64,000 bases of DNA from an uncultured Bacteroidia bacterium (lineage in GTDB: Bacteria; Bacteroidota; Bacteroidia; Bacteroidales; UBA932). The notes under the pieces were generated by a model. The model saw only the letters and a program-made list of their open reading frames with translations, was not told where the DNA came from and did no database searches. The stretch is taken from assembly GCA_902774045.1 (NCBI GenBank), contig CACYGW010000004.1, positions 1-64,000 of the forward strand, in the 5' to 3' direction. Shown here piece by piece: positions 17,089 to 31,717 of the stretch (the first letter of the stretch is position 1; every line of letters begins with the position of its first letter). A program made the translations under genes and the position numbers.

Positions 17089-17120
17089 TTGCAAAAGTAC
17101 AAAATAATTTTGTAAATTTG
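17089..17120 (+). promoter_or_regulatory. Candidate promoter of the Ser/Thr kinase cluster
   Basis: TTG at 17089-17091, a 21-nt gap, then TAAATTTG at 17113-17120 fit the Bacteroidota -33/-7 pattern. The ATG is 31 nt further on and a purine-rich AGGAAG lies between. On the other strand TACTTTTG (17092-17099) could serve GH53, so the two promoters would overlap. Confidence 0.6.
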
Positions 17121-17151: not shown

Positions 17152-17709
17152 ATGATTTGTACTAATTGCGGTTGGGACAATGCTCCCTCCAATGTGCATT
17201 GCGAAAAATGCGGAACAAAGCTGGTGGTGATTCCTGCTCCCCAGCCCCCGGTTAAACCGGCTTTTTGCGGGAACTGCGGTTATCCCCTGTCTAATCCAGG
17301 CCCGGTGTGCCCCAGCTGCGGCACCCCCATCCCCGGAAGGGGCCATGCCGGCGGAACCTTGTCTCCTATCCAGGGGCAGGCTCCTCAGGAACCCGTCAAG
17401 ACAGAAATTCCTGCGGCAGGCGGGCCGTCTTTCTCTCTTGAGCCGGTGAATATGGCAGGAGAGGACAATCCGGCAGGAAGAATCAGTTATGTGGGAGAGA
17501 AGGTTGTGCTTAACAGGGCCAACACAGAGCCGGACAATTCCAGCATTACATCCAAAGTACAGGCAGAAATCGTAAATAAGGATGGTAAGTGGATTATATC
17601 CGACGGCAGTTCCCTCAAGACTACCTTCATCTACCTGAGCGAGCCAAGAGAGCTCAAGGACGGGGATGTAATCCTTCTTGGTAACAGACTATTCAAATTC
17701 AAGGTATAA
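17152..17709 (+). CDS. Double zinc-ribbon protein with C-terminal FHA-like domain
   Basis: A 185-residue cytoplasmic protein. Two zinc ribbons are clear: Cys3, Cys6, Cys17, Cys20 and Cys39, Cys42, Cys53, Cys56. A Pro/Gly-rich linker follows, then from about residue 105 an FHA-like beta-sandwich (ISYVGEKVVLNRANTEPDNS, KDGKWIISDGSS, LKDGDVILLGNRLFKFKV). FHA domains bind phosphothreonine; the usual SRxH motif is replaced by SSITSKVQAEI, so binding may be altered. Its stop overlaps the next kinase start (TAATG), so it is probably a substrate or adaptor of the kinase. First gene of the cluster. Confidence 0.85.
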   Translation: MICTNCGWDNAPSNVHCEKCGTKLVVIPAPQPPVKPAFCGNCGYPLSNPGPVCPSCGTPIPGRGHAGGTLSPIQGQAPQEPVKTEIPAAGGPSFSLEPVNMAGEDNPAGRISYVGEKVVLNRANTEPDNSSITSKVQAEIVNKDGKWIISDGSSLKTTFIYLSEPRELKDGDVILLGNRLFKFKV

Positions 17710-18986
17710 TGGTTCCCCAGCAGTGCATATTCAATCCCGGAGATATAGTTGACGGCTGCCTCACTATTGTTACACATCTTGGCGGAGGTACCTTCGGCGA
17801 TGTTTACCGTGTCCGCAACACGGAAGGGAGGGAATATGCCCTAAAGATACTGAAGCTCTGGAAGGTATCGGCCGCAGAATGTGAAAACCTGCGCAACCGC
17901 TTCAAGATGGAGTTCGACACCGGGCGTATAGACAGCCAGTATCTGGCCCATTCCTATTCTTACGGAGAGGTCTTGGGCAATCCCTTCATTCTTATGGAGC
18001 TTTACTCCGGCGGAGACCTTAAGACCTATGCCCTTAATCACGACGTAGACTGGGCCGTGCTTGCAAGGCAGATTCTTGGGGGATTGTCGGATCTTCACGC
18101 AAGCGGCAAGGTTCACAGGGACCTTAAGCCGGAGAACGTGCTTATAAGGGAGGACGGTACAGCCGTTCTAACAGACTTTGGCATTTCCGGAGACCGCAAC
18201 AAGAGGATGACGGAGCGTGCGGCCGGCGGCGGCCCTCAGCAGCTTTTCGGGACCTATCCCTATATGCCTCCGGAGCAGCTTAATCCTCCGCGTGGCAGCC
18301 AGGCCACCGTTCTTCCCACGACAGATATCTTCTCCTTCGGGGTGATGATGTACGAAATCATTACCGGTCAGCTCCCATTTGGACCAATGTCGATGGAGAC
18401 CCTTCATACCTACCTGACAAACAGCAGTACGGGTAACTGGGACAGGGAGCAACTTAACGCCGTTCCCGGCGGGGCCGCTTGGGCGCCTCTTATAGAGGGC
18501 TGCCTGCAGCCGGACTTCAAACAGCGCCTGCAGAGCGCCGCCCAGGTGCGGGATCTTATCCCGGGAGGTTTGATGGATTCTCTCAGAGGAGAGGACAAGG
18601 CCTATATGAGGGTTGTAAACGGCTTGCTGCTAAGAGTGATGCAGGGAGAGGAGTACGGGGCTGTTTATTATCTTGACCAGTGCCTTCAGAGCGGCCGCTG
18701 GCTTATTCCCATGGGCCGTACGGACGGCAGTCCCAACGGGGGAATACCTATCAAGGAGATTCAGAGCTGTTATATTTCCAGAAGGCATTGCACCCTGGAA
18801 AAGGACCCTGTGTCCGGCCAGTGGTACATTAGGGACGGACAGTGGAATCCCGCAGAAAGAAAGTGGGTTCAGTCTCTAAACGGAACTTATGTAAATTCTT
18901 CCGAGGCTCTTGAGGAGGCAATGCCCATAGGCCCCGGGGATATCATCTCTTTGGGAGACGTAAAATTAAGGGTAGAAGGATACTAG
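17709..18986 (+). CDS. Cytosolic Ser/Thr protein kinase with C-terminal FHA domain
   Basis: A 425-residue Hanks-type kinase. Residues 15-290 hold the catalytic domain: glycine loop LGGGTFGDVY, Lys46 (ALKILKL), VHRDLKPENVL with Asp138, TDFGIS with Asp156, and a PYMPPEQL activation-segment end. The C-terminal ~100 residues form an FHA domain (IPMGRTDGS, YISRRHCTLEKD, SLNGTYVNSS, GDIISLGDVKLRV) with the canonical SRRH phosphothreonine motif. There is no membrane segment. FHA plus kinase in one chain suggests docking on phosphorylated partners, perhaps the membrane kinase encoded next. The start overlaps the previous gene by one base. Confidence 0.95.
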   Translation: MVPQQCIFNPGDIVDGCLTIVTHLGGGTFGDVYRVRNTEGREYALKILKLWKVSAAECENLRNRFKMEFDTGRIDSQYLAHSYSYGEVLGNPFILMELYSGGDLKTYALNHDVDWAVLARQILGGLSDLHASGKVHRDLKPENVLIREDGTAVLTDFGISGDRNKRMTERAAGGGPQQLFGTYPYMPPEQLNPPRGSQATVLPTTDIFSFGVMMYEIITGQLPFGPMSMETLHTYLTNSSTGNWDREQLNAVPGGAAWAPLIEGCLQPDFKQRLQSAAQVRDLIPGGLMDSLRGEDKAYMRVVNGLLLRVMQGEEYGAVYYLDQCLQSGRWLIPMGRTDGSPNGGIPIKEIQSCYISRRHCTLEKDPVSGQWYIRDGQWNPAERKWVQSLNGTYVNSSEALEEAMPIGPGDIISLGDVKLRVEGY

Positions 18987-19006
18987 ATAATCAGAATACT
19001 TAGCAT

Positions 19007-20686
19007 ATGGAACAGGAACTAGTAAAGGGATCATTGTTCGGCGGGCGTTATGCTCTGCTGGAAGAAAAGGGCCGCGGGTCCTTTGGCGAAGTCTGGCTTG
19101 CAAAGGACACGCAGCTGGACATAGATGTAGCTCTAAAAATTTACATTGCCCTGGACGACAGGGGTATAGAGGAATTCAAGGCGGAATTCCGCAATGCCTA
19201 TAATCTTAATCACCCCAATCTTCTGCACGCCACCCACTTTGATACGGACGGCCGCAGACCTTTCCTGGTGATGCCTTATTGCCCGGACTCTTCCACGTCC
19301 CTGATTGGCAAGTGCGACGAGCCTCTCCTTTGGAAACTCATTATGGATGTGAGTTCCGGCCTGGCTTACCTGCATTCCGTAGATGTGGTGCATCACGACA
19401 TTAAGCCGGACAATATCCTCCGGGATTTTGCGGGTAACTTTGTTATAACGGACTTTGGCATAAGCACTAATATGCGCAGCACCTTAAGGCGCAATGCCGA
19501 TGCCGGCGAAACTCTTGGCGGAGCCCTGTCCTATATGGGCCCGGAGATGTTCACTTCCGAACCTGTTTCCATCAAAGCTACCGATATTTGGGCCCTTGGC
19601 GCAACTCTTTATGAGATTGCAGTTGGTGAACTGCCTTTCTTCGGGCAGGGCGGCATAATGCTTGGCCGCGGCGCCGATGTTCCCCAAATTAAGGGAGATT
19701 ATTCGGACGACCTCAAGCGTGTAATAAGGGACTGCCTTGCAATGGAGCCTTGGGATCGTCCTCAGGCAGCGGCGCTCCACGCGTTTGCGTCGGCTAAGGT
19801 GTCCGGGAGGGAGGCTTACCCGTCCTGGAATCATATTCCTGACAAAAAGCCTGCACCTGCACCTTCGGCCGATCCGGCTCCTACATCCATTCCTACCCCC
19901 GGCCCTAAACCCGCATCGGCTCCGGCTCCCAAGAAAGAAGAACCTGCAACCCGCCTTATGGTTGGTGTTCCGGAGTCCAATATGCCCAAGACCGATGTCA
20001 GCCAGGCACGCAGGCCAGCTCCTGCACCCGCACCAGCTCCTGCACCGGCTCCTGCTCCTGCACCGGCTTCTGCTCCTGCACCCGCTCCTGCTCCTGCACC
20101 CGCACCGCCGGCCAGGATACCTGTACAGGACAATCGTCTGGAGTCCACAGTGATAGTATCGGCCTCAAATGTCCCGGAGATGGACAAAATGCCTGCAAAG
20201 CAGGCTCCGCCCAAGGCACCATCGGCCCCTAAATCATCATTCGAACCCTATGGACCAAAGCCCAAGAAGAAGAAAACCTGGCTTGTAGTCCTTATTTGTT
20301 TTGTAGTTGCCGCCGGCCTGGGAGTAGGTGCAATCCTTCTTCTGCCAAGTCTGTCAACCAATCAGGCCGATGTTGACCTGCCCCAGTACGAGGCTGCCTG
20401 CCGCCAGGTAGATTCCCTTGTGAACCTTGGCGCAAACAACAAGATAGACCCTCTTATCGCTGCAATAGATGCCTATGCCAGGGTAAGCAGTTATGAGAAT
20501 ACTTATCCTGACGACAAGAGATACAAAAAAGGCAGCGCAATCCTTACTGTCCTTAAGCGCAAGGCTGCTTCTGCCGCCATGGCCTGGGACGAGGCCGCCA
20601 AGGCCCAGCGCGCTGCCGGAAATTACGATTATGCCAGAAAGGTAGATGAGAAAGTAGCTAAACTTAACAGAGCAAAAGACCTGTAA
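19007..20686 (+). CDS. Membrane-anchored Ser/Thr protein kinase with Pro-Ala linker
   Basis: A 559-residue kinase. The catalytic domain is at 12-265: GRGSFGEVW, Lys44 (VALKIYI), HHDIKPDNIL with Asp131, DFGIS with Asp149. The residue before the catalytic Asp is His130, not Arg, so this is a non-RD kinase. A long Pro-Ala linker (about 280-400) leads to one transmembrane helix at about 424-446 (TWLVVLICFVVAAGLGVGAI). A ~110-residue external domain follows, predicted helical (MAWDEAAKAQRAAGNYDYAR). This is the layout of sensor kinases such as PknB or PrkC, but without PASTA repeats, so the signal differs. It lies 20 nt after the FHA kinase and 3 nt before the MORN gene. Confidence 0.94.
   Translation: MEQELVKGSLFGGRYALLEEKGRGSFGEVWLAKDTQLDIDVALKIYIALDDRGIEEFKAEFRNAYNLNHPNLLHATHFDTDGRRPFLVMPYCPDSSTSLIGKCDEPLLWKLIMDVSSGLAYLHSVDVVHHDIKPDNILRDFAGNFVITDFGISTNMRSTLRRNADAGETLGGALSYMGPEMFTSEPVSIKATDIWALGATLYEIAVGELPFFGQGGIMLGRGADVPQIKGDYSDDLKRVIRDCLAMEPWDRPQAAALHAFASAKVSGREAYPSWNHIPDKKPAPAPSADPAPTSIPTPGPKPASAPAPKKEEPATRLMVGVPESNMPKTDVSQARRPAPAPAPAPAPAPAPAPASAPAPAPAPAPAPPARIPVQDNRLESTVIVSASNVPEMDKMPAKQAPPKAPSAPKSSFEPYGPKPKKKKTWLVVLICFVVAAGLGVGAILLLPSLSTNQADVDLPQYEAACRQVDSLVNLGANNKIDPLIAAIDAYARVSSYENTYPDDKRYKKGSAILTVLKRKAASAAMAWDEAAKAQRAAGNYDYARKVDEKVAKLNRAKDL
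20014..20109 (+). repeat. Low-complexity Pro-Ala coding repeat
   Basis: Short repeats of CCTGCACC and GCTCCTG units inside the membrane kinase gene encode alternating Pro-Ala, a stiff extended linker. A similar Pro-Ala-Gln stretch lies in the phosphatase gene at about 22866-22953. Such tracts can slip during replication, so linker length may vary between strains. Confidence 0.85.
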
Positions 20687-20689
20687 GCT

Positions 20690-22009
20690 ATGAAACAGAA
20701 ACTTGTATTATTACTCTCGTTTTTCTTCTGTGTCGCAGCTGTTTACGCCCAGGAAGTCCCCGGGGAAACCACTGTGATTCAGAGTTGTTACGATGTTACC
20801 TTCAAAAAAGGTCTCAGCCTCTTTAACCACGGCAAGTATGCAGAGGCCAAGAATCAGTTCGTGGCGGCAAAGTCCTGCCCGGACAAGCCTGCCGACAACG
20901 AGCTTGATCTTTGGATTAAACGCTGCGAGGAGCAGATAGTTACCCTGGAGATTACAAATGCCGTATTCTGCAACGTCACCAATGACGGAACTGTCATTGA
21001 TTCTTACGGTTCATCCCTCTATGCCGGAAAGATTAAATATATAAAGCCTAAAATTACATATACCTCTCACCTGTCAACGAGCAAGAGCGTAAAGATAAAC
21101 GTAAAGGTTCTTAAGCCGGACGGAGATATGCTGTTCTCCGGCTCGTCCCCCAACGGATACACCTACAGCTCGGAGTTTACAGCGCAAACCGGCAGTTCCA
21201 ACACCGTAGAACTGCTGGGCTGGGGTAATTCCGGCGGCGGTACGTATTCGGAGGGTACCTATACGATGGAGTTCTGGTACAAGAACAAGAGGCTCTTCAG
21301 CAAGTCCTTCCACGTGTACTCCGGTACCGGCAGCAGCTCTTCCGGCAGTGGTTCTTCCGGCAGCGGCTATGGCTCCGGGAGCAACAACAATTCCTCTTAT
21401 AACCAGGGCGGAAGGACAACTCCCATCAGAGGCGGAAAGTGGGAAAGAATGTTCAAAGACCTTATGAGGAATGCAACTGTCCTTAGCGGTGGCGACCGTT
21501 ACCTTGGAGAAAGGGATTCCAACGGTAACAGGCACGGATGGGGTATTTATTCTTGGACCGATAATACCATTTACATTGGCAAATGGTCCCGTGGGGATTT
21601 TGACGGGGGCGCAATGTACTTCTGTCCCGACGGATACGAGCTCACTGGAGCAGAGGGCGGACAGTTCTTTGCCGGCTATTATTCAAATGACAAAAAGACA
21701 AGCGGCCGCGTATATGACGAAAACGGAAATATGCTTTACATTGGCAGTTTCTCTAACAATAAACCGGAAAATGATTATCCTCATTTCTCCGTTACCTCTC
21801 CTATGTTGGTTATAGAGTACAACAACGGAGACCTGTTCGTGGGTGAAACGGATGGTACCCGTCCTTATGGATTCGGCCTGTATCTGTGGCACGACGGCGG
21901 CGCTTGGTTCGGTTTTTGGTCGGAAGGCGTAAGAAAAGGCTCAGGTTTCTATATCTCCGACTCCGGCTCCATTACCAGCGGAACCTGGGATAACAACACA
22001 ATGAATTAG
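20690..22009 (+). CDS. Secreted MORN-repeat protein with N-terminal TPR-like segment
   Basis: A 439-residue protein with signal peptide (LVLLLSFFFCVAAVYAQ). Residues 30-85 resemble one TPR (FKKGLSLFNHGKYAEAKNQF). A beta-rich middle part follows, then a Ser/Gly linker (about 205-240) and MORN-type repeats in the last 170 residues (NRHGWGIYSWTDNTIYIGKW, RPYGFGLYLWHDGGAWFGFW). MORN repeats bind lipids or proteins. Placement between the membrane kinase and the membrane phosphatase, 3 nt after the kinase, suggests it is the periplasmic ligand or partner of the kinase's external domain. That role is inferred from position only. Confidence 0.85.
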   Translation: MKQKLVLLLSFFFCVAAVYAQEVPGETTVIQSCYDVTFKKGLSLFNHGKYAEAKNQFVAAKSCPDKPADNELDLWIKRCEEQIVTLEITNAVFCNVTNDGTVIDSYGSSLYAGKIKYIKPKITYTSHLSTSKSVKINVKVLKPDGDMLFSGSSPNGYTYSSEFTAQTGSSNTVELLGWGNSGGGTYSEGTYTMEFWYKNKRLFSKSFHVYSGTGSSSSGSGSSGSGYGSGSNNNSSYNQGGRTTPIRGGKWERMFKDLMRNATVLSGGDRYLGERDSNGNRHGWGIYSWTDNTIYIGKWSRGDFDGGAMYFCPDGYELTGAEGGQFFAGYYSNDKKTSGRVYDENGNMLYIGSFSNNKPENDYPHFSVTSPMLVIEYNNGDLFVGETDGTRPYGFGLYLWHDGGAWFGFWSEGVRKGSGFYISDSGSITSGTWDNNTMN

Positions 22010-22021
22010 AAAATTACAGAT

Positions 22022-23476
22022 ATGACAGAGATTAAGTACAGACTTACAGCTTGCAGTGATCCTGCCGGAAAAAAGAATGACATAGCTCCCTTGTACGGGA
22101 ACGAGGACAATATGCTTTTACTTCCCGGACTTTCTCCGGAGCCCTTTGTCCCGGACGCCGTACTGGAACTCGGCCCTCACGGCACTCTGCTTATGGTGGC
22201 CGACGGTATGGGTGGAATGAATGCCGGCGAGGTGGCCTCACAGATTGCAGTTTCTACCGCACAGGCAATGTTTTGCTCAGAGGAGGCCCAGTCCCTGGAC
22301 GCATCGTCCTACCAGGCCAGGGAAGCCTTTATGGAAAAGGTTGTGGTCCAGGCCGATACTGCCATTAAGGAAAAGGCTGCCGCAGACCCCGAATGCTCCG
22401 GGATGGGCAGCACCATCATTATGATATGGCTCTGCGGAAACGAGGCTACGGTTACCTGGTGCGGAGACAGCCGCGCATATCTGTTCCGTCCTTCCATAGG
22501 ATTACGCCAGGTATCAAAGGACCATTCTTATGTTCAGAGCCTTGTGGATGCCGGCAAGATTACAGCCGACGAGGCCTTTGGCCATCCCTACGGCAACGTA
22601 ATTACCCGCTCTCTGGGAGACCCTTCCAAGGCAGCAAAGGCAGACAGCCACACCTTCCCTATATATAAGGGGGATATACTTATGCTTAACAGCGACGGCC
22701 TTAGCGGAGTTCTGCGCGACAAGACAATGCAGGACATCATAGCGGATTCCAGACAGACCCCTACTCAGTGCAGGGAGGCTCTCTGGAAAGCCGCTCAGGA
22801 GGCAGACTGGTACGACAACGTAACCTGTATTCTCTGCGAACTGGTAGAGGGTCCCGAGGCCCCTGCCGTAGTTCCGGCCCCCGCTCCCGCACCTCAGCCG
22901 GCACCGCAACCGGCCCCCGCTCCCGCACCGCAACCTGCTCCGGCTCCTTCAAGGCCTGCGGCACCGCCCGTAAAGCCCGCGCCTAAAGGGGGAAAGAATA
23001 AAATGGTAATTGTAATAAGCGTGGTTATTTCCATTGTGGTTGCAACAGTCCTGGCCCTTCTCCTTATGGGAGGCGGAAAGGGTACTACAGAACCCGGTCC
23101 GGCACCTACAGAGGTCCAGGGCAACAAGCCGCCAAAGCCTCAGGCTGCTAACAGCGGTAATCAGGCCAACAAACCGCCCAAGCCTTCACAGGGCGCTTCT
23201 CAGGGCTCATCTCAGCCTTCTACCCAGCCTGCGACAGCCAGCCAGCCTCCCCAGGGAGGATCTTCAGCGGCCGATCAGGGAGGTAAGATAGACCAGGCCA
23301 ATGAGAACAATAAGCCCGATGCCGCAGATGAAAACAAGCCAAACAGCGGCAGCGGCAACAAGCCCAACAACAGTTCGGAAGGCAAGCCAAGCAACAACCA
23401 GACCGGGCAAAACAATCAGACTGGTCAGGGAAACAATCAGACCAATATAGAAATAACGGAGAATTACGAAAATTGA
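22022..23476 (+). CDS. Membrane-anchored PP2C-type Ser/Thr protein phosphatase
   Basis: A 484-residue protein. The N-terminal ~260 residues form a PPM/PP2C phosphatase: GNEDN (27-29 region), MVADGMGGMNAGE with metal ligand Asp61, VTWCGDSRAYLF, HPYGNVITRSLG, LNSDGLSGVL and YDNVTCIL. A Pro-Ala-Gln linker leads to one transmembrane helix at about 327-350 (MVIVISVVISIVVATVLALL). The external tail of ~130 residues is rich in Asn, Gln, Lys, Pro and Ser and looks disordered. It would reverse phosphorylation by the two kinases upstream, and its linker/helix plan mirrors that of the membrane kinase. Last gene of the cluster. Confidence 0.95.
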   Translation: MTEIKYRLTACSDPAGKKNDIAPLYGNEDNMLLLPGLSPEPFVPDAVLELGPHGTLLMVADGMGGMNAGEVASQIAVSTAQAMFCSEEAQSLDASSYQAREAFMEKVVVQADTAIKEKAAADPECSGMGSTIIMIWLCGNEATVTWCGDSRAYLFRPSIGLRQVSKDHSYVQSLVDAGKITADEAFGHPYGNVITRSLGDPSKAAKADSHTFPIYKGDILMLNSDGLSGVLRDKTMQDIIADSRQTPTQCREALWKAAQEADWYDNVTCILCELVEGPEAPAVVPAPAPAPQPAPQPAPAPAPQPAPAPSRPAAPPVKPAPKGGKNKMVIVISVVISIVVATVLALLLMGGGKGTTEPGPAPTEVQGNKPPKPQAANSGNQANKPPKPSQGASQGSSQPSTQPATASQPPQGGSSAADQGGKIDQANENNKPDAADENKPNSGSGNKPNNSSEGKPSNNQTGQNNQTGQGNNQTNIEITENYEN

Positions 23477-23483
23477 TGACAAT

Positions 23484-23522
23484 GCGGTGCAAATTGCTCA
23501 AAAAACAGTAAATTTGCACCGC
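23484..23522 (+). promoter_or_regulatory. 12-bp inverted repeat overlapping the candidate ssrA -7 box
   Basis: GCGGTGCAAATT (23484-23495) and its exact complement AATTTGCACCGC (23511-23522) flank a 15-nt A-rich loop. The box TAAATTTG at 23509-23516, matching the -7 consensus, overlaps the right arm and ends 10 nt before the tmRNA. The repeat also begins 8 nt after the phosphatase stop. It may be an operator at the ssrA promoter, a terminator for the kinase cluster, or both. No T-run follows the stem. Confidence 0.65.
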
Positions 23523-23526
23523 GATT

Positions 23527-23922
23527 GGGGATGTTTTGGTTTTGACAGCATCGATGTCTGTCGGTAAGCAAGCCGGGCGCTGTGGGGCGGCCCGTTAATC
23601 CCGACCCTCGAAAATTCAGTTGGCAACAACAACTATGCACTCGCTGCCTAATTAGACCAAGTCTATTAGCTTAATCCGCGACGCCAAGGCTGCGTCGCCG
23701 ACGAGTATCCCTCGGAACTTCCGCCCGCTATTTTCCGGCCCAGGGGTATCATCAAGAGCGGGACGCACCGGTGGACGCCTTTAAAACCGGCTAAGATTCA
23801 AAGGCTAAGGGTTCGGTGGCCCGTCTTCCGGCAGCCCCTCCTCTAAAATCAAAGGAAGAATAAGCTTGTAGAAAGCCGCCGGGTGCGGTGTTTGGACGGC
23901 GGTTCGAGTCCGCCCATCTCCA
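23527..23922 (+). ncRNA. ssrA: Transfer-messenger RNA (tmRNA)
   Basis: The molecule rescues stalled ribosomes by acting first as an alanyl-tRNA and then as an mRNA for a degradation tag. The 5' end GGGGATG pairs with CATCTCC at 23915-23921 (one G-U). The T-arm is GGACGGCGGTTCGAGTCCGCC. The tag frame at 23622-23651 reads GNNNYALAA then stop, preceded by the tRNA-borne Ala; the YALAA ending is the usual protease signal. The discriminator A is followed by CAA, so the CCA end is not encoded. Length is about 396 nt. An open frame on the opposite strand here is not a gene. Confidence 0.97.
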
Positions 23923-23946: not shown

Positions 23947-26900
23947 ATGAAAAGATTCAGCTTTTATCTCCAAGTCTTAATGATTAGTGCCGCAGAAATA
24001 CTTACTTCCTGCGGCACCGATTCTTCTACGACGGTAGGAGTTCGTACCGGTTGCTTGGAGGCCGGCTCGTGGGATGTATCTTCGTGGATTTCGGCGGTGG
24101 ATGCACCGATAATGACAGACATTACCAACAACGGCGACGTTCCCGAATGCCGTTCTGCAGACGGAGCCTCCTGGTTTGTCCTGGAAAACAGCAACAAGGC
24201 CAAGGTGGTAAGCGCAAAATGGATGACCGCCGGCCTTGGCGTCTACACCCTCTACCTTAACGGCAGAAAGGTGGGCGACGATTTCTTGAAGCCAGGCTTC
24301 ACCCATCCGCAAAAGACAAAGTATTCATTCACGTACGACATTTCCAAGGCCTTTGCCAAGGGAAACGGAGAGAAAAACGTACTCTCTGCACAGGTAACCC
24401 CCGGCTGGTGGGCAGACAAGATTATGACCCCCGGTGGCCAGAAGGGTATGAACGGGACCAAATGCGCGTTCCGCGCAGTTTTGGAACTTGTTTATGCCGA
24501 TGGTTCCAGAGAACTGATAGGAACAGACACTGAGCAGTGGAAAGCAGGTGTGGCCGGCCCCGTTACCCACGCAGCCATTTTTGACGGCGAGGAATACGAC
24601 GCCAGGGAACTTCCGGGCTATGAGCGCGTGGCAGACTTCAAGGCTCCGGAGATTAACGCAGAATTCTCCGGCGAAATCCTGCCATCTCAGGGTGCGGAAA
24701 TCAGCCTCCGCAAAGATTTAGAGCTTAGCCCCGTAAGAATGTATGTCTGGGAAGAAGTAGAGGGCCGGAAAGAAGGGGAATACGGAAAGGTAGTTATTAA
24801 AAGAGAATATAAGAAGGGCCAGACCATAGACCTTGCTCCCGGAGAAACCCTAGAGGTTGACTTTGGACAGAATGCGTCGGCAGTGCCCTCGTTCGTCTTT
24901 AAGGCTGCGGCCGGCACCAAACTGGTCTGCCTGCCTTGCGAGTTGCTGAACGACGGCAACGGCGCCAAGTCAAGGGGAATGGACGGCCCGGAGGGCAGCG
25001 GACACAGAGCCAACCTCCGTACTCCCGTAAATGCCATGCGTCTTTACTATACCTTTGCCGGAGAGGAAGACTACGTGGCCTATCACCCTGAATGTACCTT
25101 CTTTGGCTACAGGTTCGTAACCATCACCACGGACGGGCCGGTACAGATTAAATCCATTACTTCCATCCCTGTCACCTCTATTAAAAAGGAGATGGAAATC
25201 GGCACCATCACCACTGGGGATGACCTTGTAAACCGTCTCATTTCCAATACTGTATGGGGCCAGAGGTCCAACTATCTGTCCGTGCCCACAGACTGCCCTC
25301 AGCGTAACGAGCGTCTTGGCTGGACTGCCGATACTCAGGTATTCACGGAGACAGGAACCTTCTTTGCCAACACGGACAGGTTTTTCCACAAGTGGACCAG
25401 GGATCTTCGCGACAGCCAGAGTCCTCTTGGGGGCTTCCCCGGAGTTGCTCCCAAAGCACAGTATGGCAGCGAGATGATGCGTCTTGGCTGGGCCGATGCC
25501 GGAATAATAGTGCCCTGGACTGTCTGGAAGCAATTCGGAGACAAGTCTATCGTAGATGAGAACTGGGAGGCGATGGAGCACTTTATGTCTCACGTAAACG
25601 AGACAAAATACGACCACGAGGCCCTGATTGCAGAAAACGGCAACTATCAGTGGGCCGACTGGCTAAGCTACGAGCCTCTTGAGAGTTGCGGCGGGCGTTC
25701 GCACTACAGCGATGCCAGCGGCCGTTGGACTCTAAGGCCGGAGACCATTGTTTACTGGAAGTATCTTTCTGCTTCTTACTGGGCGATTGATGCCGGAATG
25801 ATGAGGGACATGGCCGTCAATACAGGCAGGGATGCTTCCAAATACGAGGCAATGCAGCAGGAGGCAAGGGCTTATCTTAAGGAGACCTTCCTTAACGAAG
25901 ACGGCACCTTCAAGACTCCTATACTTAATACTATGCAGACTCCGGCCCTCTTTGCCCTTAAGAACGACCTTGTACAGGGACAGGCCAGGGAGGCTATGCT
26001 GGAGAGACTGAGGCAGAACTTCCTGGACCACGACGGATGTCTGCAGACGGGATTCCTGGGGACTTCCATTCTTATGGGAACCCTTACGGAGAATGGCATG
26101 ACCGATGTTGCCTACGACCTTCTCTTCCAAAGGAAGAACCCCAGCTGGCTCTATTCCATAGATAACGGAGCAACTACTATCTGGGAGCGCTGGAACAGCT
26201 ATACCCTTGAGTCCGGTATGGGCCCTCAGGGAATGAACAGCTTTAATCACTATGCCTATGGCGCCGTTTGCCAGTGGATCTGGCAGACCGTGGCAGGCAT
26301 TGCAACTTCTACGGAAGAGCCCGGATTCCAGACTGTCATCCTTAAGCCCGTGCCGGACAGAAGGCTTGGTTTTGTCAAGGCAGAGTACAATTCTGCCTCC
26401 GGCCTTATCAAGAGCCACTGGCGGTACGACGGGGACAAGTGGATTTGGGAGTTTACCATTCCTTCCAGGGCTCTGGTAACGCTGCCCGGCCAGGAAGAGC
26501 AAAAAGAGTATGCTCCAGGAAATTACAAAATAGTTTTGGATTTACCCTCTGACGAAAAGCCTTCATTATTGGAGGCTTTTGCCAATCCTCCCAAAGAGGC
26601 CCGCGCAAGAGTGTGGTGGCATTGGATGGACGGGAATATCTCCAAGGAGGGTATCAAGAAGGATTTGGACTGGATGGCGGTCAGCGGCATAGCAGGCTTT
26701 CAGCAGTTTGATGCCGGCGGCACTATGGGCGGAAAAACCATAGTAGAACACGTTCCTTATATGTCTGACAGCTGGAAGGATGCCTTCAGGTATGCAATCG
26801 GTTATGCAGATTCTCTTGGAATGGAGGTTGCCATAGCATCGGCTCCCGGATGGAGCTCGACCGGAGGCCCCTGGGTTAAGCCGGAGAATGCAATGAAAAA

Positions 26901-29667
26901 ACTCTCCTGGAGTACCCTGGAGGTCAAAGGAGAGGGGGTGGAAAAAACCATCAGCCTTCCCCAGCCTTACACTCAGGTAGGAAAGTACCAGAATACAGAA
27001 CTTGAAAAGAACGGAGAGCCCTGGTACAGGGACGTTGCTGTGGTGGCCGTGCGTATCCCGCAGGAAGACAAGTCTCTTGCCGACTTGGGAGCAGAACTTA
27101 GTTGCAGCGGGGGAGCGTTCTCCCTTGAGGCCCTTACAAATGGGGATTTGTCGGACGGCGGTATTCTTATCCCGGAAGAGAGCACTGGCAAGAGATGGCT
27201 GCAATATTCTTTCCCGGAGCCTGTAACCATTAAGGCACTTAGCGTCTGCGGCCTTCCTACAAGAAGTATCTGGGGTATGAGAGATGCCAATTACGACAAT
27301 GCTCTGCTGTGCAGCGACGACGGCAACTCCTGGGAAGAGATATGCCGCGTTCCTACGGGAATCCTGCTCACCCAGACTATAGATGTTCCAGACACAAAGG
27401 CCCGCTACTTCCGCTTTGCGGTTAATTATCCCCGTGCAGATAAGGAACTTAGGATAAACGAGTTCAATCTTTTTACTGTAAGCAAGATAAATCATTCAGA
27501 GGAGAAGGCCGGCTTTGCCGCCCCCTATGATTTTGCAGCCTTTATAACCCCGGAAGCCACGGCTCCCGCTACGGAAACCATCGACCTTACAACCTTTGCA
27601 AAAGACGGGAATCTTACCTGGTCTGTTCCGGAGGGTAGATGGCGGATATATCGCTTCGGGGCCACACTTACCGGGAAAAAGAATCATCCGGCCTCACCGG
27701 AGGCTACCGGACTGGAGGTGGACAAACTTGACAGGGAGGCCTGGAAAGATTACTTTCACCAATACCTTGGTATGTACAAGGAGGCGTCGGGAGGTCTTTT
27801 GGGCCAAAGGGGCATTTCTTATCTTTTGATTGATAGTTATGAGGCCGGTCAGATGACCTGGACTCCCACCCTGCGTGAGACCTTTAAAAAAGAACACTGC
27901 TACGACCTTATTCCCTGGCTCCCGGTGCTTACCGGAGAGATTGTCCAGAGCACGGCCCGCAGCGAGCAGTTCCTCTTTGACTGGAGGGCTACCATAGGTT
28001 CTATGCTGGCCGCCAACTACGATTATCTTACCGAAATTCTTAAGGAGTATAAACTCAAGGGACGTTATATAGAGGCTCAGGAAAACGGTCGCGTATTTAT
28101 CGGGGACGGAATGGACCTTAAGAAGGGCTCTACCGTGCCTATGGCCGCTATCTGGGTAAATGGAACCACGCACGAGATGAGCAGCGCAGATATTCGCGAG
28201 TCTGCCTCGGTGGCCCATATTTACGGACAGAACCTTGTGGCCGTAGAGTCGTTTACGGTTTCCGGGCGCTCAGAGAATGCCTGGAACTACTATCCCGGAA
28301 ATATCAGACACACGGCTCACGTCGCCCTTAGCAACGGTGCAAACCGCTTCATTATCCACGAGAGTTCACATCAGCCCTCGGATGCTCATAAACCGGGTCT
28401 TGATCTTCTGGGCTACGGGCAGTGGTTCAACCGTCACGATACCTGGGCTCCCTATGCCAAATATTGGATAGATTATCTTTCCAGAAGCTGTTTCCTTATG
28501 CAGCAGGGCCGTTTTGTTGCCGATGTGCTCTGGTATTACGGAGAAGATATCAATATCACCGGTATTTACGGCAGGCATCTTCCGGATGTGCCTCAGGGCT
28601 ATAACTTTGACTTTATTCAGCCCTCCGGCCTTATGGAACTTGTTTCCGTGGCTGATGGAGACCTTGTGGTTCCTTCCGGAATGCGCTACAAGGTGCTTGC
28701 CTTGGGCCGCAACTGCGAGTCTATGAGCCTTCCAGTGCTTCGAAAATTGGTAGAACTGGCCGGCGAGGGCGCAGTTATCTGCGGCACTCTGCCCAAGAGG
28801 CCTGCCGGAATAGAGGACGATACCCAGGAGTTTACCGTCCTTGTAGAAAAACTCTCGGCCTTAGTGAGCAAAAAGCAGCTTAAGGAGATTCTTTCGGAAA
28901 CTATCGGCCCGGACTATACCGGTCCTTCAGATATAAAATATCTCCACCGGGATTGCGGCGACAGGCAAATCTACTGGGTCTGCAACTTCTCCGACAAGGA
29001 GATTTCCTCCAATGTTGGCTTCCGTGATGCGGCCGGCCCTTGCACCGTGCTTGATCCGGAGACCGGAAGACCGGACGCCGGGGCTTATAAAAACGGGGTT
29101 CTTACCCTTGCGCCGGAGAAGGCCCTCTTCCTTGTGTTCGATAAGGACGGAGTAGCCCAGCCGGAGGTTCCGGGTCCCAGACGCGGCCGTGCCTTCAATA
29201 TTTCCGGGCCCTGGAAGGTGGATTTCGATGGTCTTGGCGCCCCTGAAGGCACAAGGCTCATGGATAAACTTGCTTCCCTGACTCTGAGTGAGGATAAAGA
29301 TGTGAAGTATTTCTCCGGTACTGCTACCTACACCACAGATTTTACCATTGAGAAGGAAGATAACCCCCGCGGCCTGCAGATAGATCTTGGGGAGGTTGGA
29401 CAGATGGCCGATGTTTACGTAAATGGCACCCACGTGGCCTTCCTCTGGCACGCTCCTTACATGGTGGATTGGGAGGGTTATGTGAAAATTGGCCGGAATA
29501 CTCTTACCGTTAAAGTTGTGAACACCTGGTCCAATAAACTTATCGGCGATTCAGGGCTTGCAGAGCAGGACCGCCTAACTTATACTGCCAGAGAATTTTA
29601 TAAGCCAACATCCCGTCTTACCCCTTCCGGGCTTATGGGGCCCGTGAAAATAACCGTGCTTGAATAA
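23947..29667 (+). CDS. Fused alpha-L-rhamnosidase: GH78 plus GH106, lipoprotein
   Basis: A 1906-residue protein with lipobox LTSC (Cys22). Residues ~30-860 are a complete GH78 rhamnosidase: accessory sandwich (LYLNGRKVGDDFLKPGFT, VTPGWWADK), PTDCPQRNERLGWTADTQVF near 448 with the usual catalytic-region acids, TTIWERWNSY near 745, then a closing beta domain. From about 877 a second full enzyme begins, matching GH106 (RVWWHWMDGNISKEGIKKDL, AIASAPGWSSTGGPWVKPE, a central barrel, and a C-terminal galactose-binding-like domain VYVNGTHVAFLWHAPYMVD). The two folds are unrelated, so this is a true fusion with no stop between. It likely removes rhamnose from pectin such as rhamnogalacturonan. It begins 24 nt after the tmRNA. 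Confidence 0.93.
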   Translation: MKRFSFYLQVLMISAAEILTSCGTDSSTTVGVRTGCLEAGSWDVSSWISAVDAPIMTDITNNGDVPECRSADGASWFVLENSNKAKVVSAKWMTAGLGVYTLYLNGRKVGDDFLKPGFTHPQKTKYSFTYDISKAFAKGNGEKNVLSAQVTPGWWADKIMTPGGQKGMNGTKCAFRAVLELVYADGSRELIGTDTEQWKAGVAGPVTHAAIFDGEEYDARELPGYERVADFKAPEINAEFSGEILPSQGAEISLRKDLELSPVRMYVWEEVEGRKEGEYGKVVIKREYKKGQTIDLAPGETLEVDFGQNASAVPSFVFKAAAGTKLVCLPCELLNDGNGAKSRGMDGPEGSGHRANLRTPVNAMRLYYTFAGEEDYVAYHPECTFFGYRFVTITTDGPVQIKSITSIPVTSIKKEMEIGTITTGDDLVNRLISNTVWGQRSNYLSVPTDCPQRNERLGWTADTQVFTETGTFFANTDRFFHKWTRDLRDSQSPLGGFPGVAPKAQYGSEMMRLGWADAGIIVPWTVWKQFGDKSIVDENWEAMEHFMSHVNETKYDHEALIAENGNYQWADWLSYEPLESCGGRSHYSDASGRWTLRPETIVYWKYLSASYWAIDAGMMRDMAVNTGRDASKYEAMQQEARAYLKETFLNEDGTFKTPILNTMQTPALFALKNDLVQGQAREAMLERLRQNFLDHDGCLQTGFLGTSILMGTLTENGMTDVAYDLLFQRKNPSWLYSIDNGATTIWERWNSYTLESGMGPQGMNSFNHYAYGAVCQWIWQTVAGIATSTEEPGFQTVILKPVPDRRLGFVKAEYNSASGLIKSHWRYDGDKWIWEFTIPSRALVTLPGQEEQKEYAPGNYKIVLDLPSDEKPSLLEAFANPPKEARARVWWHWMDGNISKEGIKKDLDWMAVSGIAGFQQFDAGGTMGGKTIVEHVPYMSDSWKDAFRYAIGYADSLGMEVAIASAPGWSSTGGPWVKPENAMKKLSWSTLEVKGEGVEKTISLPQPYTQVGKYQNTELEKNGEPWYRDVAVVAVRIPQEDKSLADLGAELSCSGGAFSLEALTNGDLSDGGILIPEESTGKRWLQYSFPEPVTIKALSVCGLPTRSIWGMRDANYDNALLCSDDGNSWEEICRVPTGILLTQTIDVPDTKARYFRFAVNYPRADKELRINEFNLFTVSKINHSEEKAGFAAPYDFAAFITPEATAPATETIDLTTFAKDGNLTWSVPEGRWRIYRFGATLTGKKNHPASPEATGLEVDKLDREAWKDYFHQYLGMYKEASGGLLGQRGISYLLIDSYEAGQMTWTPTLRETFKKEHCYDLIPWLPVLTGEIVQSTARSEQFLFDWRATIGSMLAANYDYLTEILKEYKLKGRYIEAQENGRVFIGDGMDLKKGSTVPMAAIWVNGTTHEMSSADIRESASVAHIYGQNLVAVESFTVSGRSENAWNYYPGNIRHTAHVALSNGANRFIIHESSHQPSDAHKPGLDLLGYGQWFNRHDTWAPYAKYWIDYLSRSCFLMQQGRFVADVLWYYGEDINITGIYGRHLPDVPQGYNFDFIQPSGLMELVSVADGDLVVPSGMRYKVLALGRNCESMSLPVLRKLVELAGEGAVICGTLPKRPAGIEDDTQEFTVLVEKLSALVSKKQLKEILSETIGPDYTGPSDIKYLHRDCGDRQIYWVCNFSDKEISSNVGFRDAAGPCTVLDPETGRPDAGAYKNGVLTLAPEKALFLVFDKDGVAQPEVPGPRRGRAFNISGPWKVDFDGLGAPEGTRLMDKLASLTLSEDKDVKYFSGTATYTTDFTIEKEDNPRGLQIDLGEVGQMADVYVNGTHVAFLWHAPYMVDWEGYVKIGRNTLTVKVVNTWSNKLIGDSGLAEQDRLTYTAREFYKPTSRLTPSGLMGPVKITVLE

Positions 29668-29707: not shown

Positions 29708-31717
29708 ATGAAGGCTTTAATTCTTAATTCAGGGCTTGGCCATAGAATGGGTGTGCTCACTAGCGAGCACCCTAAATGCATGACAGACATCTCATCAAAG
29801 GAGACTATTCTAAGCCGTCAGCTTAAGCTTATAGCAGAGGCCGGCATAGAAGAGGTGGTAATGACCACCGGTTACTTTGACGATGTGCTGGTGAATTACT
29901 GTAACTCTCTTGAACTGCCGTTAAAGTTTACCTTTGTAAATAATCCGGTTTACGATAAGACTAACTACATTTATTCCATCTGGTGCGCCAGAGAGGCCCT
30001 CCGCGGAGAAGATATAATTCTTATGCATGGAGACCTCGTGTTCCAGAACAGCGTTTTTGACGAGGTTGTTCTAAGTACTTCCTCGTGTATGACGGTAAGC
30101 AGCACCCTGCCTCTTCCGGCCAAGGATTTTAAGGCGGTGATCTGCGACGGGCGCATAGATAAGGTTGGAATTGAATTCTTTGATAATGCCCTTGCTGCTC
30201 AGCCGCTTTACAAACTCTTGGCCAAGGACTGGGACGTGTGGCTGGATGCCATAGACCGTTATTGCCGGGAGGGGAATACGTCCTGCTATGCAGAGAACGC
30301 TTTTAACGAGGTGTCTTCCCGGTGCAAAGTTCTTCCTTTGGATATAAAGGACGCTCTGTGCGCAGAGATTGACACCCCCGAGGATCATGCTCAGGTGAAG
30401 GCCAGGCTGCGTGAGATAGAGTCCCGCACAGTCTATATGTGCTTTTCTACAGATATCCTGCACAGCGGTCACATAGCCATAATCCGAAAAGCCCAGAGGC
30501 TTGGACGCCTTATAATTGGAGTTTTGTCCGATGAGGCCGTGGCAAGTTACCGGCATTACCCCCTTATACCATTCGAGGAAAGAAAGTCCCTTATCGGGAG
30601 CCTTGCCGGGGTGTGGAAGGTGGTAGGGCAGAATACTCTAAGTTATAAGGAGAATCTTCTGGTCCTGCGTCCGGACTATGTGGTTCACGGGGACGACTGG
30701 CGGGAGGGTTTCCAGAAGTCCATACGCGAGGAGGTGGTTTCCGTGCTGGATGGTTACGGAGGCCAACTTGTAGAGTTCCCTTATTCCAGCAATCCCAAGT
30801 ACGACGAACTGGAGAAAATGTCCCGCGCCAAGCTGGCTATGCCGGACTTCCGCCGGGGTAGACTGAGGAAACTTATAGGGATGAAGGGCCTTGTCACTGC
30901 CATAGAGGCTCACAGCGGTATTACCGGCCTTATTGCAGAGAAAACCACCGTGCTCAAGGATGGCAAGACCTGGCAGTTCGACGCCATGTGGCTTTCCAGC
31001 CTGTGCGATTCTACGGCCAAGGGAAAGCCGGATATTGAGCTTGTAGATATGACAAGCCGCTTCCGCACCATTGACGATATTATGGAGGTAACCACCAAGC
31101 CCCTTATTTTTGACGGCGATACCGGCGGGCTGGCGGAACATTTTGTATATACGGTCCGGAGCCTGGAGAGAATGGGCGTGTCGATGGTTATTATAGAGGA
31201 TAAGGTGGGGTTAAAGAAGAACTCCCTCTTTGGGACCGAGGTTTGTCAGACTCAGGACAGCATAGAGAACTTCTGCGCTAAGATAGCCGCCGGCAAGAAG
31301 GCTAAGAAAACATCTGACTTTATGATATGCGCCCGTATAGAAAGCCTTATCCTGGAGCAGGGGATGGAGGATGCCCTTAAGCGCGCCGCAGCCTATACAG
31401 CCGCCGGGGCCGATGCCATTATGATTCACAGCCGCCGGAAAGACCCTTCGGAAGTGTTTGAATTTGTGCAGAAATTCCGCCAGGCAGACCCTTCCACTCC
31501 GCTTGTGGTAGTTCCAACCTCTTTTAACGCTGTTACGGAAGAAGAGTTCCGCGCAATTGGGGTAAATATCGTCATATATGCAAATCAGCTTACGCGCAGC
31601 GGCTTCCCTGCAATGCAGGAGACGGCCCGCACCATATTGAAGAATCACAGGGCGCTGGAGGCAGATGCGGCCTGTATGCCCATAAAGGAAATCATCAACC
31701 TAATACCGGAAGAATAA
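29708..31717 (+). CDS. Three-domain phosphonate enzyme: NTP transferase, cytidylyltransferase, phosphoenolpyruvate mutase
   Basis: A 669-residue fusion. Residues 1-235 are a sugar/choline-type nucleotidyltransferase (MKALILNSGLGHRMG, EHPKCM, LMHGDLVF). Residues 240-370 are a TagD-like cytidylyltransferase (STDILHSGHIAIIRKAQRLG with HSGH; VHGDDWREG). Residues 384-660 are PEP mutase, with MTSRFRTIDDIMEV, IFDGDTGG and the signature EDKVGLKKNS. PEP mutase makes phosphonopyruvate, the first C-P bond step; CTP-dependent domains activate phosphonates as CMP esters. The TagD-PepM pair is a known arrangement; the extra N-terminal transferase recalls LicC/PntC enzymes. The stop overlaps the next start (TAATG). 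Confidence 0.9.
   Translation: MKALILNSGLGHRMGVLTSEHPKCMTDISSKETILSRQLKLIAEAGIEEVVMTTGYFDDVLVNYCNSLELPLKFTFVNNPVYDKTNYIYSIWCAREALRGEDIILMHGDLVFQNSVFDEVVLSTSSCMTVSSTLPLPAKDFKAVICDGRIDKVGIEFFDNALAAQPLYKLLAKDWDVWLDAIDRYCREGNTSCYAENAFNEVSSRCKVLPLDIKDALCAEIDTPEDHAQVKARLREIESRTVYMCFSTDILHSGHIAIIRKAQRLGRLIIGVLSDEAVASYRHYPLIPFEERKSLIGSLAGVWKVVGQNTLSYKENLLVLRPDYVVHGDDWREGFQKSIREEVVSVLDGYGGQLVEFPYSSNPKYDELEKMSRAKLAMPDFRRGRLRKLIGMKGLVTAIEAHSGITGLIAEKTTVLKDGKTWQFDAMWLSSLCDSTAKGKPDIELVDMTSRFRTIDDIMEVTTKPLIFDGDTGGLAEHFVYTVRSLERMGVSMVIIEDKVGLKKNSLFGTEVCQTQDSIENFCAKIAAGKKAKKTSDFMICARIESLILEQGMEDALKRAAAYTAAGADAIMIHSRRKDPSEVFEFVQKFRQADPSTPLVVVPTSFNAVTEEEFRAIGVNIVIYANQLTRSGFPAMQETARTILKNHRALEADAACMPIKEIINLIPEE

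Follow-up and report, generated by a model that had tools for sequence, protein, structure and literature searches.

A five-gene Ser/Thr phosphorylation module of an uncultured Bacteroidales bacterium, a probable compact member of an order-wide trans-envelope switch

The stretch of DNA analysed here (64,000 nucleotides from a gut-type bacterium, hereafter the window) carries five consecutive genes encoding two Ser/Thr kinases, a PP2C phosphatase, a zinc-ribbon/FHA adaptor and a predicted secreted protein. Do these genes form one functional unit, and is this unit one of the phosphorylation sets already described in bacteria? In the literature searched, Ser/Thr kinase signalling is sparsely described for the Bacteroidales, which are dominant gut bacteria, and the outer signal is unknown for most bacterial membrane kinases. 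No description of a Bacteroidales FHA/PP2C/kinase locus was found in open-access literature, the only literature covered, which is weak evidence of absence.

Organization of the locus and domain plans of its products

All five open reading frames are present and their boundaries were confirmed:

17089..17120, + strand: putative promoter, Bacteroidota-type motif TTG-N21-TAAATTTG, exact match, 31 bases upstream of G1
17152..17709, + strand: G1, cytoplasmic adaptor with double zinc ribbon, Pro-rich linker and divergent FHA domain, 185 aa
17709..18986, + strand: G2, soluble Ser/Thr kinase with canonical FHA domain, 425 aa
19007..20686, + strand: G3, membrane Ser/Thr kinase, 1680 bp
20690..22009, + strand: G4, predicted secreted protein with signal peptide, TPR-like helices, beta-sandwich and MORN array
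22022..23476, + strand: G5, PP2C phosphatase with TM helix, 484 aa, 1455 bp
23480..23527, + strand: RNA hairpin directly before tmRNA, MFE -23.1 kcal/mol, z -5.3

The intergenic gaps from G1 to G5 are -1, 20, 3 and 12 bases, and because of these values the five genes were read as one operon. The motif TTG-N21-TAAATTTG, which we take to be the Bacteroides-type promoter consensus, lies in the 98-base intergenic region 5' of G1 and is the sole exact + strand match upstream of, or inside, the five genes; the promoter is putative, being a motif match. A pattern with 20-base spacing missed this site, the actual spacing being 21, and scans for sigma-70 promoters and terminators gave matches not above the chance level. 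The preliminary description of a consecutive arrangement, with short gaps or an overlap and a single promoter, is borne out by the gene boundaries and the one motif match. At the other end, none of 200 shuffled sequences was as stable as the hairpin, which has no U-tract; this strong hairpin would close the predicted operon. A search for an empty site at the tmRNA found the GH53-type neighbour not syntenic in relatives, with clean anchors in one genome only (G003).

G1 matches the Pfam models DZR (4e-9) and FHA (2e-5), and its orthologues have the motifs MxCxNCGWxN and LNRxNT..SITSK in common. G2 matches Pkinase (1.3e-35) and FHA (1.3e-9), displays HRDLKPEN, DFG, SRRH and NGTYVN, and is the best-conserved member of the module, with 47-61% identity across 80 loci; a TM helix after the catalytic domain was seen in 0/83 kinase-FHA relatives. 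Neither G1 nor G2 matches the TagH/VI_FHA model.

The two membrane enzymes were proposed to share a mirrored plan, with the catalytic domain inside, a Pro-Ala linker, a single helix and an external tail. In G3, the kinase domain (residues 1-262, Pkinase 3.1e-36) retains the catalytic Lys, HHD and DFG and is followed by a linker of 45% P+A over 160 aa, a single TM helix at about 426-444 and an external helical domain at about 454-543, found again in 9 other membrane kinases. In G5, the PP2C domain (1.9e-12), with metal-binding Asp motifs invariant in the alignment, precedes a linker of 62% P+A and a single TM helix at about 329-348. Lys-rich stretches precede both helices, so the predicted N-in topology fits for G3 and G5. 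The plan holds up to the helix and parts at the tail, since that of G5 is low-complexity N/Q/P/G, unlike the folded external domain of G3. A helix downstream of the catalytic domain was found in 74/78 PP2C relatives and 96/103 membrane-kinase relatives, and the mirrored plan is, from these predictions, general among relatives.

G4 comprises a signal peptide, TPR-like helices (32-81), a beta-sandwich (86-210), a Gly/Ser linker and a MORN array (262-437), in an AlphaFold2 model of pLDDT 84.7. The MORN match of G4 itself is under the Pfam cut-off (E 0.028); profile searches of its homologues reach E 7e-8, and the predicted fold matches MORN1 by Foldseek (E 5e-12) and an axonemal MORN-type chain (Z 12.1). 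Its MORN identity, announced earlier together with a TPR part, is thereby established through homologues and predicted fold, its own Pfam score remaining sub-threshold. The TPR part comes down to a single short N-terminal helical unit, followed by the beta-sandwich, which has no family name. Modelled alone, this beta domain reaches pLDDT 95.9; the fold search returned generic Ig-like/beta-sandwich matches only (best Z 9.5 among many ties), and Foldseek gave no match below E 0.001. Because the fold matches are generic, no ligand class is claimed for it.

Conservation of the module and the outer partner of the kinase

Conservation of gene order was followed across 80 named Bacteroidales loci with a kinase-FHA gene, of which 69 could be tested on the upstream side and 61 on the downstream side. 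At 69/69 loci, the gene immediately 5' of kinase-FHA is the zinc-ribbon/FHA gene; on the downstream side, a membrane kinase occurs at 61/61 loci, a PP2C gene at 60/61 and the gene of an FHA-TM-trypsin-like protease at 58/61. The core recurs in nearly all genomes from an independent draw in which the module was read, and in many families despite differing flanks, so that the core linkage anticipated in relatives is indeed kept. Presence is patchy, at 14/393 Bacteroidales genomes, with two distinct module lineages inside one genus. Upstream flanks of relatives are diverse and mostly housekeeping-type. In some lineages a MotA/ExbB-type proton channel pair accompanies the module.

Genes for kinases and for PP2C phosphatases are common, and bacterial gene order is partly inherited, so one could imagine neighbours without joint function; against this, the core persists across many families with different flanks and parts of it are fused, which makes this explanation barely credible. 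A chance association of five unrelated genes was rejected on the conserved linkage. The comparisons support the five genes as one functional unit conserved across Bacteroidales.

This unit was first taken as complete with five genes, a view that had to be given up. A sister module of the same genus has the order ZF-KF-[lipoprotein]-MK-secreted TPR/beta-FHA protease-c4-PP2C, which matches that of the window except for added genes, among them the protease and a secreted gene that separate the MORN gene from the phosphatase. The FHA-TM-trypsin-like protease is absent among the window genes, where a distant FHA-TM paralogue (contig 26) is the only related protein found. Judged by gene content, the window carries a reduced form of the module. 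Between window and sister, the catalytic parts are 57-67% identical and the kinase tail 29%, and G4 has had its C-terminal part replaced; the module thus appears constant inside and variable outside.

What does the secreted protein do on the outer side? Beta domains of the G4 type occur on the external tails of membrane kinases in 9 loci, and of 13 beta-domain chains encoded separately, 11 have their gene immediately after that of a membrane kinase (gap -31 to 65). A single protein of Odoribacter laneus unites the kinase, the TM helix, the beta domain and the MORN repeats, without the TPR part of G4. On PP2C proteins the beta domain was found in 0 cases. Because of this fusion and this domain sharing, the secreted MORN protein is likely the partner of the external domain of the kinase. 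As a candidate envelope sensor standing between the two enzymes, it is thus linked on genomic grounds to the kinase tail, and nothing links it to the phosphatase tail. Nor is MORN a fixed outer part: BACON and other outer modules stand in for it in relatives, and on these sequences it is one of several interchangeable modules. A secreted protein of TPR/beta/MORN type was recognised in 26/61 loci only; it may not be universal, or may be too diverged for recognition.

Comparison with known phosphorylation systems

The T6SS threonine-phosphorylation pathway (PpkA, PppA and Fha, with TagQRST in Pseudomonas and RtkS in Serratia) has a similar parts list, with an outer-domain membrane kinase, an FHA reader, a PP2C and a periplasmic partner, and among solved structures the PppA chain 6jkv is closest in sequence to G5 (E 6e-26), PstP being a close second. 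In Serratia, the periplasmic protein RtkS contacts the part of PpkA that lies in the periplasm, and Fha phosphorylation requires it (PMC6082577); this contact was shown experimentally and is a precedent for the proposed G4-G3 link. Two genomes (G283, G367) have distant versions of the module next to complete T6SS loci, and two others (G294, G309) have them inside T6SS-type operons. However, TssC, the T6SS sheath gene, was not found in the 96%-complete genome and is present in only a small fraction of the searched genomes that carry the module, and no T6SS gene lies near the window copy or the 80 close loci, apart from a single ClpV match (L180), which we take to be a generic hit to a Clp ATPase. 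In the kinase-FHA tree, which leaves out the G309 and G294 copies, the T6SS-linked copies fall into a distant clade. The module also differs by its two kinases, the TM helix on its phosphatase, its zinc-ribbon FHA adaptor and, in relatives, the FHA-TM-trypsin-like protease, and no match to RtkS was found for its TPR/beta/MORN partner. The claim that this is not a T6SS phosphorylation set therefore stands for the window and is qualified by the distant versions in four genomes; that the module is this pathway itself is very improbable. By analogy, it would work like the pathway, without the T6SS.

With mycobacterial PknB/PstP and with Stk1/Stp1, the module shares a membrane kinase, a cognate PP2C and the plan of Pro/Ala linker, TM helix and tail (PstP is likewise a membrane protein), and the NCBIfam models that come nearest, PknB_PASTA and Stp1, each score under their cut-off (PknB_PASTA_kin, 141.9 bits against 450; Stp1/IreP NF033484, 191.9 bits against a curated 230). 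A growth or cell-wall regulator of this type with a different outer domain is nonetheless unlikely. As announced, no PASTA domain is found by Pfam in the five proteins; division or wall genes are not adjacent, and a regulator central to growth would not be expected to be lacking in most relatives, as this module is. The soluble kinase-FHA, the zinc-ribbon FHA protein and the secreted partner are additional to that plan.

A toxin/antitoxin or anti-phage module like KKP of Pf prophages, which also clusters two kinases, one with FHA, and a PP2C (PMC11341870), has a small chance of being the right comparison. The patchy presence and the two lineages within one genus would fit it, G2 carries the FHA domain expected on one kinase, and the kinase domains match PADLOC kinase models, but these matches are generic. 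KKP is defined by the order PP2C-kinase-kinase, genes of 900-1300 bp each and a cold-shock domain on one kinase, the FHA domain being on the other (PMC11341870). The window has the order ZnR/FHA-kinase-kinase-secreted-PP2C, longer G3 and G5 genes (1680 and 1455 bp), membrane anchors and no Pfam cold-shock match at E 0.1 in the five proteins. Searches of phage and plasmid collections yielded no copy at E 1e-30, viral contigs giving weak kinase matches only, and the flanks hold one restriction-modification neighbour (L132) and otherwise scattered single defence matches. On the generic PADLOC matches, the missing phage and plasmid copies and these scattered flank hits, a defence module was rejected. 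The kinase-PP2C-vWA (TerY-P-like) conflict modules (PMC7159879) share the active kinase, the PP2C and zinc ribbons; no vWA match was found in the five proteins or the extra genes scanned, FHA readers and an envelope arm taking its place.

A proposed trans-envelope switch

The gene set and its order, the domain plans, catalytic motifs and topology, and the sharing and fusion of domains come from sequence, synteny and prediction. Taken together with the comparisons above, we consider it probable that the module is a compact version of a trans-envelope Ser/Thr phosphorylation switch found throughout the Bacteroidales. G4, presumably exported, would form the outer sensing unit with the external helical domain of G3, probably by binding the G3 tail, its recognition end being exchangeable (MORN here, BACON or others elsewhere). 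A change in this outer assembly could turn on the inward kinase of G3 through dimerisation; G3 would then phosphorylate itself and/or the G2 kinase and the G1 adaptor, the FHA domains of G1 and G2 would recognise the phospho-threonines and recruit targets or pass the signal on to them, and G5, in the same membrane, would strip the phosphates and reset the switch.

Since most relatives join one FHA reader through a TM helix to a trypsin-like protease of predicted outward topology, a protease reaction in the envelope was probably the original output. The window lineage would have lost the protease gene, in which case either targets of G1/G2 or an FHA-TM protein encoded elsewhere, for example the contig 26 paralogue, would carry the output here. 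More tentatively, the module could belong to a T6SS-free phospho-relay running from an exchangeable secreted sensor to the membrane kinase, the FHA-TM reader and the outward trypsin-like protease, with the MotA/ExbB-type channel pair in some lineages, so that cytoplasmic Ser/Thr phosphorylation would drive envelope proteolysis or energised work; the window copy would then be an offshoot without the protease.

Here the genomes indicate, through gene fusion and domain exchange, a particular secreted partner for a particular kinase. The module occurs in commensals that are in culture, among them Odoribacter laneus and Bacteroides faecis, the latter with the core of kinase, phosphatase and protease, which makes the question of sensing directly testable. 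The link between an FHA reader and an outward trypsin-like protease in relatives suggests an unusual output, and the distant T6SS-adjacent versions suggest that a phospho-switch has changed between serving a secretion machine and acting independently.

Organization and domain plans of the five genes

The five genes were confirmed at the coordinates proposed in the preliminary description, all on the + strand with intergenic gaps of -1, 20, 3 and 12 bases:

17089-17120: Bacteroidota-type promoter motif TTG-N21-TAAATTTG (motif match)
17152-17709, + strand: G1, zinc-ribbon/FHA adaptor
17709-18986, + strand: G2, kinase-FHA
19007-20686, + strand: G3, membrane kinase
20690-22009, + strand: G4, secreted TPR/beta/MORN protein
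22022-23476, + strand: G5, membrane PP2C
23480-23527: hairpin closing the operon, just before tmRNA (z -5.3)

The hairpin, between the phosphatase gene and tmRNA, is very stable and has no U-tract. Positions 23947-29667 hold one 1906-residue ORF, which by eye resembles two putative glycoside-hydrolase-like proteins joined end to end.

Pfam assigned a double zinc ribbon and an FHA domain to G1, Pkinase and FHA to G2, Pkinase to G3 and PP2C to G5. G2 retains the kinase motifs HRDLKPEN and DFG, and its FHA is canonical (SRRH, NGTYVN); the FHA of G1 is divergent, yet its orthologues conserve that divergent form. The catalytic Lys, HHD (non-RD type) and DFG are retained in G3, as are the acidic metal-binding motifs in G5, and both proteins possess a Pro/Ala linker and a single TM helix preceded by Lys-rich sequence. 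For G4, Pfam gave a sub-threshold MORN match and nothing else. Its model (pLDDT 84.7), built from aligned homologues, predicts a signal peptide, TPR-like helices, a beta-sandwich (86-210), a Gly/Ser linker and a MORN array. Since this array matches MORN1 in Foldseek (E 5e-12) and is supported by VIA-align (Z 12.1 over 98 residues, 2.5 A), and since G4 homologues exceed the Pfam MORN cut-off, we assign it to MORN. Modelled alone, the beta domain reached a pLDDT of 95.9, its structure matches being generic sandwich folds only.

Conservation and genomic history of the module

Among named genomes, the G2 profile recovered 230 relatives, and 80 of these were retained; almost all of the 80 are titled Bacteroidales, and one MAG titled Clostridia bears the same module. 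The module was present in 14 of 393 genomes evenly sampled from the order (E <= 1e-60) and in 4 of 395 sampled from the phylum. In edge-aware neighbour counts, the Zn-ribbon/FHA gene adjoins the kinase-FHA gene in 69/69 loci, with a membrane kinase downstream in 61/61 and a PP2C in 60/61; the gene order is thus conserved across Bacteroidales, the check that the preliminary description had asked for. Also downstream, in 58/61 loci, is c3, an FHA-TM-trypsin-like protease; a His-motif is found in 59 and a GNSGG-type Ser motif in 49 of 69 c3 proteins, and that of Bacteroides sp. 519 matches FHA (1.2e-15) and Trypsin (2.7e-8) in Pfam. Independently drawn genomes showed mostly the same gene set, with orders rearranged in some.

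The congeneric sister G404 carries, in order, ZnR/FHA, kinase/FHA, a small lipoprotein, a membrane kinase whose external domain is that of G3, the secreted TPR/beta protein, c3, the secreted gene c4 and PP2C; given this gene string, the window module is the G404 order minus c3 and c4. The window genome has only a distant c3 paralogue, adjoining another kinase on contig 26 (1-4.7 kb, L119), which could be an unlinked output of the module.

Several related loci were observed. Contig 1 of the same genome (29.7-34.9 kb; L118 7744-12923) holds a second phospho-signalling locus, encoding an FHA-TM protein, a secreted LRR protein, a secreted caspase-like (C14) protease, a zinc-ribbon/FHA protein and a soluble PP2C. 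Within the module of L135 (11289-12930), a MotA/TolQ/ExbB-type proton-channel gene and a one-TM coiled-coil partner are inserted, matched in seven other loci (e.g. L132, L154, L157, L162, L167, L200). L174 (16012-19653) and relatives (cluster c6, 16 loci) encode membrane kinases of ~1200 residues whose outer part resembles RHS/YD-type repeats, and in L193, L201, L203 and L204 a second pair of membrane kinase and secreted TPR protein directly precedes the Zn-ribbon/FHA gene.

Comparison with the congeneric G003 showed that ~21 kb upstream of tmRNA, module included, is lineage-specific: in G003, tmRNA is bordered directly by the counterparts of window segments 3-2374 and 29708-33927, and the absence of 2374-23476 from the same place suggests a variable region. 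In the kinase-FHA tree, the window copy and that of G027, of the same genus, fall in different clades. At other loci the flanking genes vary and are mostly of housekeeping type, no consistent mobile or defence signature was seen in them, and no plasmid or phage copies were found at E 1e-30. Patchy vertical loss together with transfer would be the simplest reading.

Probable pairing of the secreted protein with the membrane kinase

Profiles of the G4 parts, run over all loci, found the beta domain on nine membrane-kinase chains and on no PP2C or kinase-FHA chain; of the other, separate beta-domain chains, 11 of 13 are encoded immediately downstream of a membrane kinase. A single 772-residue chain of Odoribacter laneus YIT 12061 comprises, in order, kinase, TM, helical and beta parts and MORN repeats. 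The secreted protein has its outer end swapped from one locus to another (MORN, BACON, others). The window and sister copies share 57-67% identity in their catalytic parts and 29% in the kinase tail, and the G4 C-terminal part cannot be aligned, a pattern that is constant inside and variable outside. The fusion, the domain sharing and this pattern support the proposed envelope-sensor role of the MORN protein on the kinase side; contact with the phosphatase gained no support.

Known systems and a proposed switch

T6SS genes were found neither around the window copy nor around the 80 close loci, and no TssC was found in the window genome, so that the claimed lack of secretion-system genes holds for this genome. 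It does not extend to the wider family: distant versions adjoin or lie within type VI secretion loci (L225/L229, L226/L230, L223, L224), standing beside complete ones in G283 and G367 (TssC 1.9e-190, TssD, VgrG, others) and adjoining TssK-type and neighbouring genes in G309 and G294 (TssC ~12.5 kb away in G294). The G283 and G367 copies branch far from the window clade in the kinase-FHA tree.

Among working systems, RtkS-PpkA-Fha-PppA of Serratia is the nearest parallel: there, periplasmic RtkS binds the PpkA outer domain, and normal Fha phosphorylation requires RtkS (PMC6082577). Membership in that pathway was rejected because the T6SS link was not found. KKP, whose order, gene length and cold-shock domain (PMC11341870) do not agree with the module, and the PASTA kinase system were also rejected. 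The parts are of familiar kinds, and we found no paper describing them as a set in the open-access literature searched.

We propose that the whole could act as an envelope-sensing switch, in which secreted G4 and the G3 tail would sense outside, the G3 kinase would act inside, G2 and G1 would serve as readers and relay, and membrane-held G5 would reset the system. The parts, their order, the predicted topology, the fusion and the domain exchange are documented here, and to these we add by inference the binding, signal, phosphorylation order and output. Within this family the window copy is a reduced member, and the relatives that have the FHA-TM protease are fuller and of greater interest.
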